This document shows positions 38,829-61,454 of a DNA stretch of 64,000 bases, piece after piece. Source of the DNA: Massilia polaris (lineage in GTDB: Bacteria > Pseudomonadota > Gammaproteobacteria > Burkholderiales > Burkholderiaceae_D); contig NZ_JABBGG010000013.1 of assembly GCF_012927275.1 (NCBI RefSeq), positions 1 to 64,000 of the forward strand. The letters run 5' to 3'. Position numbers and translations under genes: made by a program. Each line of letters starts with the position of its first letter. Position 1 is the stretch's first letter. The notes under the pieces are model-generated. The model did no database searches, had not been told where the DNA came from, and was given only the letters and a program-made list of their open reading frames with translations.

Positions 38829-39830
38829 TTATTGCTGCCCCTGGTGCGTGCGCAAAAAATCGTTGTATGAGTAAGTCTCGTTCGCGATCACCCCCGCCTC
38901 GAGCCTGAACAGCGCCCAGAAGTAATTCTGCTCGCCCCTGCACACCTGCGCCGCTGCGACGTACTTGTGCCACTCATTCGCAAACGCCGCCGTGTACATC
39001 CCGTCGCCGTCATGGAAGTAAGGGATCACGCGCCGCTCCTGCAGTGCGTCGAGCAGCGATTGCGGCGCCGCGTTGTCGATGGCGATCTCGTAGTGCGCAT
39101 TCATCCCGGCCTCGCTCTCCACCACCAGCAGCATCGCGCGGCCCGCGGTGTCGTACATCAGCAGCCCGGCCGGATTCGGGAACAGATAGTGCTCGACGAT
39201 CCTGTGTTCCGCCACCAGATCGCGCACCAGCGCCGCCACCGCCGGATCGGCCACGAAGCTGTAGCTGTGCAGCGCGAGCAGGTCGCGCAGCGGTTCCGAG
39301 CGGGCCGAAAAATACTCGCGCTGCAGCGCATGGATCTCGCTTTCGAGCCGCTCCAGCGCATTCTCGTCGCTCTTTTTGATGTAGCGGTCGATCAGCCCGC
39401 GATTGAAGGCATCGACCGCCACCTTCTCGTCCGCCGCTCCGGTGAAGAGGATCTTCTTGCACGGCAGGTGGCGCACCGCTTCGCACAGTTCGACCCCGTT
39501 CATCTGCGGCATCGAGTAGTCGACCACCAGCACCGATGGCGTCATGAAGCGCCGCGCCTGGAAGCTGATGCGGTGGATCTGGTCGAGGTCGAGCGCGACG
39601 CTGCATTGCGCCGTCCTGCGCGGATAGGTGTCGTAACTGGCCGACAGCGCACCTTCTGCCTGGTCCGGCATGCCGGGTTGCTGCGATAGCCAGGCCAGCG
39701 CGCTGCTGGTGTCGTGGAAGGCGACGCTGGCGAGCGTCGGGTCGAGCTGGAACGACAGGCTGCGCAGGAAGTTGTCGCTGTCGTCGACCAGGACCGTCAG
39801 GCTGGGGTGGTGGTAGATGGGGAGGGACAT
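38829..39830 (-). CDS. jqsR: Quorum-sensing response regulator JqsR/LqsR-like
   Basis: The 333-residue protein has a receiver domain with acidic D16/D17 and phosphoacceptor D104 in LVVDYSMPQMNG, then FTGAADEKVAV and the lysine pair in YIKKSD. About 40 extra residues (52-95) separate the second and third strands, as in LqsR. The C-terminal half (160-333) has no recognisable helix-turn-helix, so DNA binding is doubtful. It lies 16 bp after the kinase gene and is probably its phosphorylation target. The family link rests on architecture and neighbours. Confidence 0.85.
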   Translation of the reverse strand: MSLPIYHHPSLTVLVDDSDNFLRSLSFQLDPTLASVAFHDTSSALAWLSQQPGMPDQAEGALSASYDTYPRRTAQCSVALDLDQIHRISFQARRFMTPSVLVVDYSMPQMNGVELCEAVRHLPCKKILFTGAADEKVAVDAFNRGLIDRYIKKSDENALERLESEIHALQREYFSARSEPLRDLLALHSYSFVADPAVAALVRDLVAEHRIVEHYLFPNPAGLLMYDTAGRAMLLVVESEAGMNAHYEIAIDNAAPQSLLDALQERRVIPYFHDGDGMYTAAFANEWHKYVAAAQVCRGEQNYFWALFRLEAGVIANETYSYNDFLRTHQGQQ

Positions 39831-39846
39831 GGGGGCGCCGATACGG

Positions 39847-41157
39847 TTAAGCGGCCAGCGCAGGCGCGGGCGCCGCCAGCTGAACCTTGGGGAATTCGAG
39901 CACGAACATCGTGTAGCCGTGTTCGCGCGAGGCGACGCGGATGCTGGCGTGCCAGGCTTTGATGATCTCCTTGCACAGCGCGAGGCCGATGCCGGAGCCG
40001 GAACTTGGCGGATACGAGTAGAAGCGTTCGAACACCAGTGGCAGCTGCGACGGCGCGATGCCGCAGCCGGTGTCGATGAACAGCAGGCGCGGCGTCGTGC
40101 GGGCGCCGTCGACCACGATGCGGATCCTGCCTTTGCCGGCGCGATGCAGCGCCTTGAGCGCGTTCCTCAGCAGGTTGAGCACGATGACGACGGACAGTTC
40201 GTAGCGGCCGGCGAAGCTGAAGTCTGCGCGGATGTCCACCGTGACGGCGGTGCGCTGCGAATTACCGGTGAACGGGTAGCGCCTGATAACCGATTCGACG
40301 ACGTCGGCCATCGACACGTATTCGTTTGCTTCCAGCTGCTGGTTCACGGCCGACGCCGACAGCAGGAAAAGGTCGATCATGTGGTTCATGTGCCTGACCT
40401 CGAACTGGATGCGCGCCATCGCTTCGCTCATCGCGTGCCAGTCGGCTTCTCCCGGCAGGCCCGGTTTGCCGAGCCGGCGATTGATGCCGCGCGCATTGGC
40501 GTCGATAGTGACGAGGGGCGTGCGCAATTCGTGCGATACCGCCGCCAGCCCGTGCGCCATCCCCGCCAGCTTTTCCTGGGCCAGCACGCGGCGGCCCACC
40601 TTGGCGATCGATACGACAAAGATCGTGAAGCCGTACAGCGGCAGCTGTTCCAGTACCTCGTGGCTGAGCAGGAAGGCAGGGTCGTCGACCAGCGCGAACA
40701 CCAGGCAGGCGAGGGCGGTGCCGACCAGGTAGGAGCACAGCGCCCACCGCGTATCGAAGTGGAACAGCACGATCAGGCCAATCAGCAGCGACTGGGCCCA
40801 GACGGCCGCGCCGTGGTTCATCAGGTACATGAAGCTGAAGAAGAACGGCAGCACGTAGGTGACGCCAACGAAGATGTAGGCCTTCATTACCTTCGGCGGG
40901 AACGGCTGGCGCGAGCACACCGCCGGCAGGCATAGCGCGGCGCCGGCGAGGCGCAGCGCAAGGCTTTCGAACTCCTGCGGGAACCACCAGGTCCAGACCG
41001 CGTAATACAGCGGCAGGCCGATGCAGCCGACCCACGCCAGCATCATGAAGCGGGTGGACGCGTGGCTGTACTGGCGATCCTGGCGCACCAGCCAGAGCAG
41101 CATTGCCTGCTGTCCCTTGCCGAAACCCGCCTTCACCCTGTCAATCCATTGATCCAT
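39847..41157 (-). CDS. jqsS: Membrane sensor histidine kinase JqsS (CqsS/LqsS-like)
   Basis: From ATG 41157 the 436-residue protein has six hydrophobic helices (about residues 36-185). A HisKA domain follows, with H209 in AVSHELRTPL, then a HATPase domain with NLLRNALKAL, DTGCGIAPSQ and GSGIGLALCKEI. CqsS-type kinases use such six-helix modules to sense alpha-hydroxyketones. There is no C-terminal receiver, unlike Vibrio CqsS and like LqsS. The frame continues to a GTG at 41190, but the ATG is preferred. Confidence 0.88.
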   Translation of the reverse strand: MDQWIDRVKAGFGKGQQAMLLWLVRQDRQYSHASTRFMMLAWVGCIGLPLYYAVWTWWFPQEFESLALRLAGAALCLPAVCSRQPFPPKVMKAYIFVGVTYVLPFFFSFMYLMNHGAAVWAQSLLIGLIVLFHFDTRWALCSYLVGTALACLVFALVDDPAFLLSHEVLEQLPLYGFTIFVVSIAKVGRRVLAQEKLAGMAHGLAAVSHELRTPLVTIDANARGINRRLGKPGLPGEADWHAMSEAMARIQFEVRHMNHMIDLFLLSASAVNQQLEANEYVSMADVVESVIRRYPFTGNSQRTAVTVDIRADFSFAGRYELSVVIVLNLLRNALKALHRAGKGRIRIVVDGARTTPRLLFIDTGCGIAPSQLPLVFERFYSYPPSSGSGIGLALCKEIIKAWHASIRVASREHGYTMFVLEFPKVQLAAPAPALAA

Positions 41158-41189
41158 GTAAATCCGCCATTTTTCACGCCAAGGCCCCA

Positions 41190-41304
41190 CTCAATGTTGA
41201 GCTGGCGCAAATTGATAATTGTCAAATGCGATCTTGTCGCACCTTTGCAATCAGGCACTTGATCTGGCTCAATGTTGCACGCCGCTGCGAAATTGTTGAG
41301 CAAC
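41190..41304. promoter_or_regulatory. jqsS-jqsA divergent control region with repeated TTGAG-type motifs
   Basis: The 191-bp space between the divergent genes has CTCAATGTTGAG (41190-41201, near-palindrome), GCTCAATGTTGCA (41267-41279) and GTTGAGCAAC (41295-41304, with GTTG/CAAC arms). The repeats share a CTCAA/TTGAG core. They could be binding sites of a regulator of autoinducer synthesis. No regulator is known to bind them. Confidence 0.4.
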
Positions 41305-41348
41305 GCGAGGACACACAATGAACTTCTTTTACCAAGGAGAAAGAAATC

Positions 41349-42593
41349 ATGACACTCGCTGCCCGCCAACAAAGCCTGTTTATCCGCGCCGAACAGTGCC
41401 TGCCGTCGTTCGTGACCAGGCGCATGGATGAGCACTACATCACCCGCGTCGAGCAATTGCTTGGCGGTGAACACTTGCATGTCTGGAAACCTGCGGAGGC
41501 GGGCGCCATCATGCTCGCCGGGAATGACTACCTCTGCATTTCCGGCGAGCCCACCCTGCTCGCGGCCCAGGCCCGTTGCCTGCAGTCCAGCCAGGCCGGC
41601 TTGCTGATGTCGTCCGTGTTCCTCCAGGAAGGCAGCCGCCAGCACCAGCTCGAAGCGAAGCTGGCGAACTTCATGGGCGCCGAGGATGGCGTGCTGGCGC
41701 AATCGGGCTGGGCGGCCAACGTCGGCCTGATCCAGAGCATCGCCGAGCCGGGGGTGCCGGTGTACCTCGACATGCTGGCCCACGCTTCGCTGTGGGAAGG
41801 CGTGCAGTCGGCGCGCGCCGAAGGGGTGCCGTTCCTGCACAACGACGCCGGCAACCTCGCGCGCCAGCTCGAGAAGCACGGCCGCGGGGTGATCGTCGTC
41901 GACGCGCTGTACAGCACCAACGGCAGCGTCGCGCCCTTGCACGACATCGTCGATATCGCCGAACGCAGCGGTTCGATCCTGATCGTCGACGAATCGCACT
42001 CGCTGGGGACGCATGGCCCGCGCGGCGCCGGCATCGTGGCCGAGATGGGCCTGGAGGACAGCGTCCACTTCCGCACAGCGTCGCTGGCCAAGGCGTTTGC
42101 CGGGAGGGCGGGATTCATCACCTGTTCGAACAAATTCAAGGGTTACTTCCTGTCCGCCTCGCGTCCGGCGATCTTCAGTTCCTGCCTGCTCGAACACGAG
42201 CTGGCATGGTTCGATGCCGCGCTCGACCTGATTTCCGAGGCGGGCGCGCGCCGCGCCGCGTTGCACGCGAACGCCAGGCAGGTGCGCGAAGGCCTGCGCG
42301 AGCTTGGCTACAACGTCGACGACGGCACCGAACAGATCATCGCGCTGGAGGCAGGCCCGGAACCGAAAACGCTGGCGCTGCGCAAAGCGCTCGAACGGCG
42401 CGGTGTCTATGGCGCGGTGTTCTGTGCACCGGCCACGGCCAAGAACCGCTCGCTGGTGCGCCTGACGCTGAACTCCGGCCTGACAAGCGACGCGATCCGC
42501 CGCCTGCTCGACGCCTGCGACGACATGCGCGGCGAAGTCGATCTGGAAAGCTGGTCGTCGACGCGCCGTTCCCGCCGCCTGACGCTGGTCTGA
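41349..42593 (+). CDS. jqsA: Alpha-hydroxyketone autoinducer synthase JqsA (CqsA/LqsA-like)
   Basis: The 414-residue PLP enzyme of the alpha-oxoamine synthase family has DESHSLGTHGPRG (D214, H217) and the Schiff-base lysine K248 in TASLAKAFAGRAG. The block MSSVFLQEGSRQHQLEAKLANF near residue 87 is of the CqsA type. It differs from KBL and BioF in its SLAKAFAGRAG context. CqsA-type enzymes condense an acyl-CoA with SAM or an aminobutyrate to give alpha-hydroxyketone signals. AAGGAG lies nine bases before the ATG. It is divergent from the jqsS-jqsR pair. Confidence 0.9.
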   Translation: MTLAARQQSLFIRAEQCLPSFVTRRMDEHYITRVEQLLGGEHLHVWKPAEAGAIMLAGNDYLCISGEPTLLAAQARCLQSSQAGLLMSSVFLQEGSRQHQLEAKLANFMGAEDGVLAQSGWAANVGLIQSIAEPGVPVYLDMLAHASLWEGVQSARAEGVPFLHNDAGNLARQLEKHGRGVIVVDALYSTNGSVAPLHDIVDIAERSGSILIVDESHSLGTHGPRGAGIVAEMGLEDSVHFRTASLAKAFAGRAGFITCSNKFKGYFLSASRPAIFSSCLLEHELAWFDAALDLISEAGARRAALHANARQVREGLRELGYNVDDGTEQIIALEAGPEPKTLALRKALERRGVYGAVFCAPATAKNRSLVRLTLNSGLTSDAIRRLLDACDDMRGEVDLESWSSTRRSRRLTLV

Positions 42594-42635
42594 ATCCGCG
42601 CATCCAAATAAAAAAATAATGAAGGAGTGTCCAAA

Positions 42636-43403
42636 ATGTCCACCTTGTCCCTGTTCTTCGAAATCTCCGCGTTCTTCCTCGCCGTGTACGCGCTGTGCGC
42701 GGGCGGCGCATACCTGCTGGTCTGGACCCTGGGGCGCGAGCGCTATGCGGCGCACCGCATCCAGCAGCGCCCGCGTCCAGCGCAGGTAAGACGCGAAATC
42801 TTCTGGTCCGTCGTCTCGATCCTGATCCTCTCATCGCTGCTGACCGTCACCTGGCTGATCGCGGAAGCGGGATGGAGCCTCGGCTACTTCGATGTGGCTG
42901 ACCATGGCTGGACCTACCTCGCCGCATCGGTGGCGATCATGGCCATCGTCCACGACACCTACTACTATTGGGCGCACCGCTTCATGCACCATCCGAAGGT
43001 CTTCCGCCACGTGCACAAGCTGCACCACACCTTCACCAACCCGACGCCGTTTGCCAGCTACGCCTTCCATCCGCTTGAAGCAGTCGTTGAAGTGGCCTGG
43101 TACGCGCCGCTGGCCTTCGTGCTGCCGGTGCACCCGTATGCCGTGGCCGCGTACATCGTCGTGCTCACCGTGCTGAACGTGATCAGCCACCTTGGCTACG
43201 AGTTTTACAGCCCCGGCATCGCACGCTGGTTCATCACCAGCACCCACCACAACATGCACCATGCGCGCGCCAAGGGCCACTTCATGTTGTACTTCAACCT
43301 GTGGGACCGCTGGATGGGCACCAACATGCCGGAATATGAGGCCGCCATGCAGCGCAAGGAAGACGACGCGGTTCCGCTGCGCTATCATGGCGCACATGAG
43401 TGA
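42636..43403 (+). CDS. Fatty acid hydroxylase / sterol desaturase family membrane enzyme
   Basis: The 255-residue protein has four helices and the three histidine clusters of the family: HRFMHH at 114-119, HVHKLHH at 125-131 and HHNMHH at 204-209, which bind a di-iron centre for oxygen-dependent hydroxylation or desaturation. The start at 42636 has GAAGGAG eight bases upstream; a GTG at 42627 lies in that site. It begins 42 bp after jqsA and overlaps the hemoglobin gene by eight bases. Modification of a lipid or of the autoinducer is conceivable from position only. Confidence 0.9.
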   Translation: MSTLSLFFEISAFFLAVYALCAGGAYLLVWTLGRERYAAHRIQQRPRPAQVRREIFWSVVSILILSSLLTVTWLIAEAGWSLGYFDVADHGWTYLAASVAIMAIVHDTYYYWAHRFMHHPKVFRHVHKLHHTFTNPTPFASYAFHPLEAVVEVAWYAPLAFVLPVHPYAVAAYIVVLTVLNVISHLGYEFYSPGIARWFITSTHHNMHHARAKGHFMLYFNLWDRWMGTNMPEYEAAMQRKEDDAVPLRYHGAHE

Positions 43404-43785
43404 ACCTACTACCCTGTATGAAGTCATCGGCGGCGAAGCGCGCGTGCGCGAACTGGTCGACCGGTTTTACGACCTGATGGAGCTGGAGCCGGAATTCGCG
43501 GGCATCCACGCGATGCATCCGAAGCCGAACGACAGCTCGCGCGACAAGCTGTTCATGTTCCTGTCCGGCTGGATGGGCGGGCCGGACCTGTTCGTCGAAA
43601 AGTACGGACACCCGCGCCTGCGCGCGCGCCACCTGCCGTTCGCCATCGGATCCGGCGAACGCGACCAATGGCTGCGCGCGATGGCGTGGGCGATGGAAGA
43701 CGTCGGCATCGAAGAAGCGCTGCGGCTGCGGCTGATGGAGTCGTTCTACCAGACCGCCGACTGGATGCGCAACAAGGCCGACTGA
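43396..43785 (+). CDS. Group II truncated hemoglobin
   Basis: The 129-residue globin has B10 tyrosine in VDRFYDLM, the distal region FLSGWMGGPDLF, proximal H79 in RLRARHLPF and the group II tryptophan W92. It binds heme and O2 or NO in the cytoplasm. Its ATG lies inside the end of the desaturase gene (eight-base overlap), so they are translationally coupled; an in-frame ATG three codons upstream is also possible. An oxygen-supplying or NO-detoxifying role next to an O2-dependent di-iron enzyme is inference. Confidence 0.92.
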   Translation: MSEPTTLYEVIGGEARVRELVDRFYDLMELEPEFAGIHAMHPKPNDSSRDKLFMFLSGWMGGPDLFVEKYGHPRLRARHLPFAIGSGERDQWLRAMAWAMEDVGIEEALRLRLMESFYQTADWMRNKAD

Positions 43786-43789
43786 CTAC

Positions 43790-45109
43790 ATGACCCAACT
43801 TGAATTTCTTGCACTGGCCGCACTCGCCGTCGTCGTGATCGCGCTGCAGCTGGCATTGCTGCTGCGCGGGCGCGGGCGCGACTCCGAACGGATGGAGCGC
43901 GAACTGCGCGCCGAACTGCAGGCCAGTGCGCAGGCGACCCGCCAGGAACTGGGCGGAACGCTCGCGCAGTTCCACGGCGCCACTGTCCAGCAGCTCGACA
44001 GCCTGCGCCAGCAAAGCATGCTGCAAGCCAGCAGCGGGCGCGAGGAACAGGCGGTGGCGCTCAAACGTTTTGCGGACACCCTCCAGCGCACGCTGACGAC
44101 GCTGACCGAGTCGCACTCGCAGCGGATGATGGAAGTACGCGCGACGCTGGAAACCAGGATCAAGGACCTCCAGGCCGATAACGCGGCGCGCCTTGAAGAG
44201 ATGCGCAAGACCGTCGACGAAAAGCTGCACGCCACGCTGGAAACCCGCCTGACCGAATCGTTCAAGCAGGTGTCGGAGCGGCTGGAGAGGGTGCACCAGG
44301 GCCTGGGTGAAATGCAGCAGCTGGCGCTGGGCGTCGGCGACCTGAAGCGCGTGCTCACCAACGTCAAGACGCGCGGCACCTGGGGCGAGGTGCAGCTTGA
44401 GATGCTGCTGGAGCAGGTGCTGACCGTCGACCAGTATGCGAAGAACGTCGAGACGGTCGCCGGCACCAACGCCCGCGTCGAATTCGCGATCAAGCTGCCA
44501 GGCATGGTCGACGGCGGCGCGCCGGTGTGGCTTCCGATCGACGCCAAGTTCCCGAAGGAGCAGTACGAACGTCTGGTGGAAGCGGCCGACCGGGCCGACG
44601 CCGAAGGTGTCGCGCTCTACGGCAAAGAACTCGAACGCGCTGTACGCAACGAGGCCAAGACGATCTGCGAGAAGTACGTCTCGCCGCCGCACACCACCGA
44701 CTTCGCGATCCTGTTCCTGCCGACCGAGGGCCTGTACGCCGAAGTGATGCGCCGTCCGGGTCTGGCCGACGACCTGCAGCGCACGCTGCGCGTGTCGATC
44801 GCCGGGCCGTCGACCCTGGCCGCGATCCTCAACAGCCTGCAGATGGGCTTCCGCACGCTGGCGCTGGAGAAGCGCTCGTCGGAAGTGTGGGAAGTGCTGG
44901 GCGCTGTGAAGACCGAATTCGGTAAATTTGGCGATGTGCTCCACGCGACCAAAATGACGCTGGAGAAGGCGGCCAAGAACATCGAGAACGCCGAAGTCCG
45001 CAGCCGCCAGATGGCGCGCAGGCTGAAATCGGTGGAAGCACTCCCGAGCGAAGCGGCGCAGCTGCTGCTTGGACCCGAAATCGAAGCAGGAGATAGCGAC
45101 ACCCCTTAA
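43790..45109 (+). CDS. rmuC: DNA recombination protein RmuC
   Basis: The 439-residue protein has one N-terminal helix (about 5-23), a long coiled coil (about 30-175) and the RmuC nuclease-like domain with [20 protein letters not shown] near residue 190 and [15 protein letters not shown] near residue 245. RmuC limits inversions at short inverted repeats. The start is four bases after the hemoglobin stop, so it may be read through from the jqsA operon. Confidence 0.95.
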
Positions 45110-60496: not shown

Positions 60497-60740
60497 GCTG
60501 TTTCCCCTTTTTACGTTGTCGGCTTCGCGTTCGGCTTAAGGACGAGCTAGGTATTTTTACCAGAATCATTCAGCCGATTCCTAATGATGTTTCAGTGTAT
60601 CAACGCGAAACCGGTCACTCTTGATCTTCCTCAAATGTGCAGCTTGCGCCGACTCAAATACCTAAAAACAATGAACTTTCCGCAAGGCACTGTCCAAAGC
60701 GTCCTTCCGAGCCCCCGGGCGTTCTGTTAAAGTCTCGCCC

Positions 60741-61454
60741 ATGAGCAAATTATCCCTGGACCGCATCCTGCAATCGCAAGGTTTCGGCACCCGCAAATAC
60801 TGCCGCGCGCTGATCGAAGACGGCGACGTTGCGATCAACGGCGAGATTCAAGACAGCTACAAGAGCACGGTCGACACCGATAACCTCGTCCTCGAGGTGT
60901 TCGGCGACGAGTGGAAGTACCGCCAGCACGTCTACATCGCGCTGAACAAGCCGGGCAACTTCGAATGTTCGCGCAAGCCGAGCCACCATCCCGGCGTGCT
61001 GACCCTGCTGCCGGAACAGTTCACCTGGCGCGATGTGCAGCCGGTGGGCCGCCTCGACCACGACACCACCGGCATGCTGCTGATGTCGGACGACGGCCCG
61101 TTCATTCATGCGCAGTCGTCGCCGAAGCGGCACGTTCCGAAAATCTACCAGGCCGCCACGGCCGAACCGGTCACGCCGGAGCTGATCGAACAGCTGCTGG
61201 CGGGCGTGCAGCTGCATGACGAACCGGCGCCGCTGGCGGCACTGTCGTGCGTGCAGCGCGGCGACAAGCTGCTCGAGATCGTCCTCGAACAAGGCAAGTA
61301 TCACCAGGTCAAACGCATGCTGGCCGCGGCCGGCAACCACTGCAGCGCGCTGCACCGCTCCGCCATCGGCGGCCTGACGCTCGAATCGCTCGGCCTGGCC
61401 GAAGGCGAATGGTGCTTCCTGGAGCAAGCACAGCTGGACCTGCTCGTCCCGTAA
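60741..61454 (+). CDS. rsuA: RsuA-family 16S rRNA pseudouridine synthase
   Basis: The 237-residue protein has an N-terminal S4 domain (about 1-50) and the RsuA/RluB-type active site GRLDHDTTGMLL with D106. KYHQVKRMLAAAGNHCSALHR near residue 188 matches the K-(F/Y)HQVKRM motif of the family. It probably modifies U516 of 16S rRNA; RluE or RluF specificity is possible. It is followed by an FAH-family gene 14 bp later. Confidence 0.9.
   Translation: MSKLSLDRILQSQGFGTRKYCRALIEDGDVAINGEIQDSYKSTVDTDNLVLEVFGDEWKYRQHVYIALNKPGNFECSRKPSHHPGVLTLLPEQFTWRDVQPVGRLDHDTTGMLLMSDDGPFIHAQSSPKRHVPKIYQAATAEPVTPELIEQLLAGVQLHDEPAPLAALSCVQRGDKLLEIVLEQGKYHQVKRMLAAAGNHCSALHRSAIGGLTLESLGLAEGEWCFLEQAQLDLLVP

Follow-up and report, generated by a model that had tools for sequence, protein, structure and literature searches.

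The 64,000-nucleotide stretch of Massilia polaris DNA analyzed here (positions 1 to 64,000 of contig NZ_JABBGG010000013.1; hereafter, the window) carries a predicted quorum-sensing locus of the Jqs type, in which a gene for a membrane hydroxylase lies directly behind jqsA, the gene for the autoinducer synthase (Table 1). Coordinates and matches to Pfam and NCBIfam profiles bear out the five-gene arrangement of the original prediction, with jqsR and jqsS on the minus strand and, divergent from them, jqsA, the hydroxylase gene, and a gene for a truncated hemoglobin (trHb) on the plus strand. The identification of the core locus stands as well: JqsA scores 550.7 bits against the NCBIfam model for alpha-hydroxyketone autoinducer synthases (curated cutoff, 428), and the kinase and receiver genes are divergent from it. 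JqsS matches the HATPase_c domain above the Pfam cutoff (E value of 5.4e-19) and HisKA below its gathering score (4.7e-5). A CqsA-family synthase with an adjacent and divergent histidine kinase is the arrangement of Cqs, Lqs, and Jqs loci, whereas the side-by-side placement of jqsA, jqsS, and jqsR and a TTGAN6/7TCAA motif upstream of jqsA mark the Janthinobacterium/Duganella (Jqs) subtype. By these sequence features, the locus belongs to the Jqs type of alpha-hydroxyketone quorum-sensing systems, and its jqsR-jqsS and jqsA are of the family's own kind; jqsR and jqsS accompany jqsA at 37 of the 40 jqsA loci mapped in the family. The closest named genome found is that of Massilia agrisoli MAHUQ-52 (locus L145), whose jqsA and hydroxylase are 95% and 94% identical, respectively, to those of the window.

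Table 1. Features of the jqs locus and its flank (window coordinates)
Feature	Position	Strand	Remarks
jqsR	38829-39830	-	Receiver-domain protein, 333 aa; Pfam PF00072, 3.3e-9
jqsS	39847-41157	-	Sensor histidine kinase, 436 aa from ATG; upstream GTG alternative at 41190
JAI-1 motif, copy 1	41212-41225		TTGATAATTGTCAA; exact match to published TTGAN6/7TCAA
JAI-1 motif, copy 2	41259-41272		TTGATCTGGCTCAA; exact match to published TTGAN6/7TCAA
jqsA	41349-42593	+	CqsA/LqsA/JqsA-type autoinducer synthase, 414 aa; NCBIfam NF005526
Membrane hydroxylase, jqs-linked clade	42636-43403	+	255 aa, 42 nt behind jqsA; PF04116, 9.1e-26
Hydroxylase 3' end, apparently translated from older hemoglobin leader	43370-43403 (approximate)	+	Likeness to L035 leader, by eye
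TATCAT hexamer	43383-43388		Upstream of hemoglobin gene; promoter-like, conserved across family
Truncated hemoglobin (trHb)	43396-43785	+	129 aa, ATG 43396 (or 43387); PF01152, 3.5e-39
rmuC	43790-45109	+	PF02646, 3.3e-78; 4 nt past hemoglobin; missed in the original prediction

The only Pfam domain found in JqsR is the receiver, matched over residues 94 to 159 from profile position 39 onward; the C-terminal half of the protein has no Pfam match. The acidic residues that should mark the beginning of the domain are at 16 and 17, whereas the match begins only at residue 94, and so this receiver seems to carry an insertion.

The motif TTGAN6/7TCAA has been described upstream of jqsA in Janthinobacterium (PMC5080296). 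Both copies in Table 1, overlooked by the original prediction, have the N6 form and are located between jqsS and jqsA. The window contains 4 copies of TTGAN6TCAA against 0.35 expected, and none of the N7 form. Copies at about the same distance are seen at loci L033 to L035, and M. agrisoli has both. Within 300 bp upstream of jqsA, the motif is present at 31 of 39 loci of the window's family versus none of 15 other loci, 7 of which belong to the gammaproteobacterial hydroxylase carriers described below. The two further exact copies in the window lie at 1078-1091, overlapping the initial codons of a transporter-like open reading frame (1085-1999), and at 60621-60634, some 106 bp ahead of a gene that resembles those for pseudouridine synthases (60741-61454); both genes were named by eye.

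The most likely start codon of the hydroxylase is ATG 42636, which is preceded by AAGGAG, rather than GTG 42627. The protein passes the gathering score of PF04116 (91.3 bits; cutoff, 31), all five members of hydroxylase alignment A2 match this family, and ten histidines (residues 106, 114, 118, 127, 130, 131, 185, 205, 208, and 209) are invariant across 44 hydroxylase sequences, in clusters that fit the predicted two-metal-ion site of the family. Its sole NCBIfam match is to the ornithine lipid hydroxylase OlsE, at 20.2 bits (E value of 3e-4) against an equivalog cutoff of 475. The structure model has a mean predicted local distance difference test (pLDDT) score of 92.4, with residues 250 to 255 below 50; the nearest solved fold is the lipid hydroxylase Scs7p, and the absence of other folds from that list carries no weight against them. 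Foldseek returned nothing at E values up to 0.001, and a sequence search of the PDB gave no match at E values up to 1. Ratios of nonsynonymous to synonymous substitution rates over three genomes, 0.085 and 0.20, show the gene to be under purifying selection. Foreign base composition was considered and rejected, as GC content (62.2%) and GC content at third codon positions (85.2%) resemble those of the neighboring genes. No relative was found in a viral contig collection; among plasmids, hydroxylase matches occur in 94 records, all below 60% identity, and synthase matches at E values up to 1e-60 in 7 records.

In a sample of 294 genomes of the window's family, jqsA (E value up to 1e-80) is found in 77, and a close hydroxylase (at least 88% identity) in only three of these, namely, the window, M. 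agrisoli, and one relative. These are also the only three among all 294 family genomes and among the 17 of the genus, and each time the gene lies behind jqsA. Since 40 of the 77 jqsA loci were mapped, the absence of the hydroxylase from the remainder rests on the family-wide hydroxylase search. Eight more family genomes encode distant hydroxylases (37 to 40% identity), none of them at a jqs locus. Among the family genomes searched, sequence comparison thus shows a hydroxylase of a distinct clade, 42 nt behind jqsA, only in this species group.

The nearest relatives elsewhere, at 58 to 62% identity, all come from one gammaproteobacterial family. A scan of named genomes returned at least 80 hydroxylase loci; among the matches listed, the best three, from M. 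agrisoli (94%), a metagenome-assembled genome (MAG) labeled Klebsiella pneumoniae (61%), and a gammaproteobacterial MAG (59%), all lie beside jqs genes, and the remaining 77, at no more than 45%, do not, save for one generic kinase match. The Klebsiella label is probably wrong, because that genome belongs to the same family as the other gammaproteobacterial MAG. Of 150 genomes sampled from this family, 19 encode a hydroxylase at E values up to 1e-40, and 8 of them a close one (E value below 1e-114). Homologs of jqsR and jqsS adjoin the close hydroxylase in all eight, and in seven a synthase gene or its 3' end lies upstream on the same contig. One of the seven assemblies (G295) carries the greater part of jqsA on a different contig, which at its end shares 141 identical bases with the hydroxylase contig; in the eighth genome (G1011), the contig ends 143 bases past the match start, and jqsA lies at another place in the assembly. 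No jqs genes accompany the distant hydroxylases of this family at the 8 places inspected out of 12, and jqsA was detected in none of 30 other family genomes, which were taken from a named list and not drawn at random; G1011, an outside positive control searched in the same way, did match. Among 244 genomes sampled across the order, the sole close hydroxylase is that of G295, and no jqs genes lie within 1.5 kb of the other nine matches.

The gammaproteobacterial gene order, jqsA followed by the hydroxylase and then by jqsR and jqsS on the opposite strand, differs from that in Massilia. Thus, the hydroxylase lies directly behind the synthase in both lineages although the receptor genes have been rearranged, and every genome seen to encode a close relative also encodes a synthase. 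The suspicion voiced in the original prediction, that hydroxylase and synthase belong together, finds its backing here, in the jqs neighborhoods of the closest distant relatives. Several of these loci (L263:10590-13205, L265:11018-13210, and L147:4172-6577) have a gene for an MMPL/RND-type transporter beside jqsS, assigned by Pfam MMPL matches in L263 and L147 and by eye in L265; it is a possible signal exporter. Neighbors of distant hydroxylases (10 proteins at 7 loci) were also tried as a guide to function and gave no common theme: the Pfam-matched ones are a transporter, a kinase, DUF2807 (twice), a response regulator, ankyrin repeats, and glutamine synthetase. In G045 (L139:7066-10822), a distant member of this hydroxylase superfamily directly precedes an apparent type VI secretion VgrG gene, named by eye.

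Phylogenetic trees were built from 49 hydroxylase and 47 synthase sequences, a subset of the loci found; one synthase (L250), from a gene with in-frame stops, was used only to the first stop after the aligned start. The 11 jqs-linked hydroxylases form a single clade with values of 100/100 (bootstrap/Shimodaira-Hasegawa-like approximate likelihood ratio test). On the synthase tree, by contrast, the Massilia hydroxylase carriers are sister to L035 (genome G203), the nearest relative without the hydroxylase, inside their own family. A single grouping of the hydroxylase-bearing synthases is rejected by the approximately unbiased test (P = 1.85e-40; the test was specified post hoc, with the tree already in view), and the presence of the hydroxylase calls for at least two changes on this tree. 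In the simplest reading, the hydroxylase entered the Massilia locus without a partner synthase; an ancient presence followed by many losses is possible and would need more events, and a donor carrying synthase and hydroxylase together is a possible vehicle. A recombination point within jqsA was sought, and the identity to L035 shows no jump (78.7 to 86.0% in 150-base steps). Coevolution of the receptors was likewise considered and rejected: columns common to the carriers and absent from L035 number 6, 3, and 6 in JqsS, JqsA, and JqsR, versus 7, 2, and 4 in a mirror control, and comparison of sensor and kinase identity in JqsS reveals no special divergence.

The junction with the hemoglobin gene looks like a scar of this insertion. 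The two genes overlap by 8 nt, with the same junction in both relatives, and the noncoding trHb leader of L035 resembles, by eye, the last hydroxylase codons. The hemoglobin start lies inside the hydroxylase gene, apparently because the hydroxylase frame runs into the older hemoglobin leader, which it seems to cross before stopping inside the hemoglobin start. The low model confidence of the last six residues agrees with this reading.

Taken together, these observations suggest a Jqs-type system to which a dedicated oxygenase has been added that putatively tailors the alpha-hydroxyketone signal, an interpretation that we consider moderately probable. In the proposed circuit, jqsA and the hydroxylase gene would be transcribed together from the region with the two JAI-1 motifs, so that the level of hydroxylase would track signal production. 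The enzyme would use O2 at a di-iron site formed by the conserved histidines and would oxidize an acyl chain, either that of the JqsA product or that of the acyl-CoA from which the product is made, and the resulting modified signal would be read by JqsS; the hemoglobin gene and rmuC, as older neighbors, would remain outside the circuit. Two observations weigh against tailoring. The original prediction had proposed gene order in relatives as its check, and within the window's family the order of jqsA and hydroxylase is not conserved, being limited to three of the 77 jqsA genomes. Moreover, the receptors show no convergent change in the hydroxylase carriers.

Among the alternatives, a fairly unlikely one is that the hydroxylase acts on membrane lipids instead of the signal and that its place in the operon ties a lipid change to cell density. 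PF04116 takes in sphingolipid, ornithine-lipid, and sterol enzymes, and both the weak OlsE match, far under the cutoff, and the fold of Scs7p point in this direction, whereas a lipid enzyme leaves unexplained why the gene is kept directly behind the synthase in both lineages, despite the rearranged receptor genes, and why its close relatives were never seen in a genome lacking the synthase. Signal turnover, in which the hydroxylase would oxidize the finished signal and so switch off or sharpen the response, lowering activity in the circuit, we regard as unlikely. The evidence from linkage, clade, and selection favors it equally with tailoring, and the unchanged receptors fit it better if they still read the unmodified JqsA product; however, a destroying enzyme cotranscribed behind the synthase would be futile unless separately regulated, and a simple and insensitive scan found no plus-strand promoter between jqsA and the hydroxylase. 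Chance insertion of a gene functionally unconnected to signaling would account for its restriction to three of 17 genus genomes and for a 3' end read by accident from the older hemoglobin leader, but is very improbable in view of the purifying selection and of an exclusive clade whose pairing with jqs genes recurs in all eight carriers of a distant family.

The hemoglobin gene has a history of its own. Counted at E values up to 1e-35, trHb occurs in 256 of the 294 family genomes, compared with 77 for jqsA, and so does not show the pattern expected of a Jqs component, to occur with jqsA and not without it; at 31 of the 40 family jqsA loci, it follows jqsA on the same strand. Of 20 hemoglobin loci picked by hand from the trHb matches, 19 come from genomes without a jqsA match and one from a genome with jqsA elsewhere (G256). 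At 11 of the 20, no jqs genes intervene between trHb and a permease gene whose end is no more than 200 bp from the trHb start; in the window, this permease gene is found upstream of jqsR. At 19, rmuC is beside trHb, and the gene add often precedes this block. Therefore, the jqs genes are embedded in an older permease-hemoglobin-rmuC block, and we judge the hemoglobin gene to be a neighbor belonging to the local chromosome and not a part of the signaling locus, with rmuC as a neighbor that travels with it. A TATCAT or TATGAT hexamer is found near the trHb start at 46 of 51 loci, nearly always 6 to 7 nt before the ATG (0.5 expected from simple letter shuffles), and would fit a putative -10 element of a leaderless hemoglobin transcript. 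An operon extended to the hemoglobin gene, as in the original prediction, in which hemoglobin would supply oxygen to the hydroxylase or protect it, is favored by the shared 8-nt overlap and the frequent position behind jqsA but is barely credible for a gene that adjoins permease and rmuC at loci devoid of jqs genes, is preceded by a promoter-like leader of its own, and has no homolog detectable by tblastn in the flanks retrieved for the gammaproteobacterial jqs-hydroxylase loci.

Some family genomes retain only parts of the jqs locus. A jqsR homolog (E value up to 1e-25) without jqsA is present in 18 of the 294. Three of these loci, L122, L123, and L124 (genomes G155, G177, and G219), have full-length jqsS and jqsR at the usual site and no synthase, and the two inspected, L122 and L124, retain the kinase and receiver motifs; judged by coordinates, G067, G133, G210, G228, G282, and G288 are further receptor-only genomes. 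Such loci may listen to the signals of others. In L120 (G070) and L125 (G106), and by coordinates also in G108 and G235, jqsR survives beside the hemoglobin gene either in partial or split form or on its own, apparently in further decay of the same locus.

The steps that follow a CqsA-type synthase are only partly known, and a recurrent gene behind the synthase offers a direct handle on its product. If the hydroxylase tailors the signal, a single gene gain would give its carriers a private dialect of a shared signal and would tie alpha-hydroxyketone signaling to oxygen. More tentatively, and with distinctly lower confidence, the locus could represent a new branch of this signaling, in which an O2-dependent enzyme makes a hydroxylated or desaturated autoinducer that bears a lineage-specific mark and reports oxygen, and in which a tailoring gene that moves among loci not otherwise related, landing behind a resident synthase, changes the signal in one step.

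Compared with known systems, the window shares with Janthinobacterium sp. strains HH01 and HH102 the three adjoining genes and the motif upstream of jqsA (PMC3566124 and PMC5080296); the word hydroxylase is absent from the former paper and used twice in the latter, both times for the violacein gene vioD. The structure of JAI-1 is given as unknown in the 2013 paper (PMC3566124). The CqsA/CqsS system of Vibrio and the LqsA/LqsS/LqsR system of Legionella have, as in the window, a homologous synthase and an adjacent kinase, but the described steps beyond the synthase consist of spontaneous hydrolysis and a dehydrogenase, with no oxygenase beside the synthase in the passages available (PMC3376566 and PMC3285556). 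According to a 2012 review, most clusters comprise only synthase and kinase homologs, some have a regulator in addition, and Legionella has the extra gene hdeD. No published synthase-hydroxylase pair was found in the open-access literature, judged mostly by title and the start of the abstract, and where cqsA/lqsA papers also mention a hydroxylase, the words are unrelated in the parts available (PMC5080296, PMC10491745, and PMC8527658). The core system is already known, and the addition of a hydroxylase to it is apparently undescribed. With Scs7p, OlsE, and the sterol enzymes of PF04116, the window's hydroxylase has in common the family profile, the conserved histidines, and the nearest solved fold; it differs from them in forming a separate clade with 18 clade-specific residues, which, unlike other PF04116 enzymes, is found only at quorum-sensing loci among the genomes seen. 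Hydroxylation of a quorum-sensing molecule as a late step is familiar from Pseudomonas quinolone signaling, where it is carried out by the monooxygenase PqsH, an unrelated flavin enzyme acting on an equally unrelated signal.

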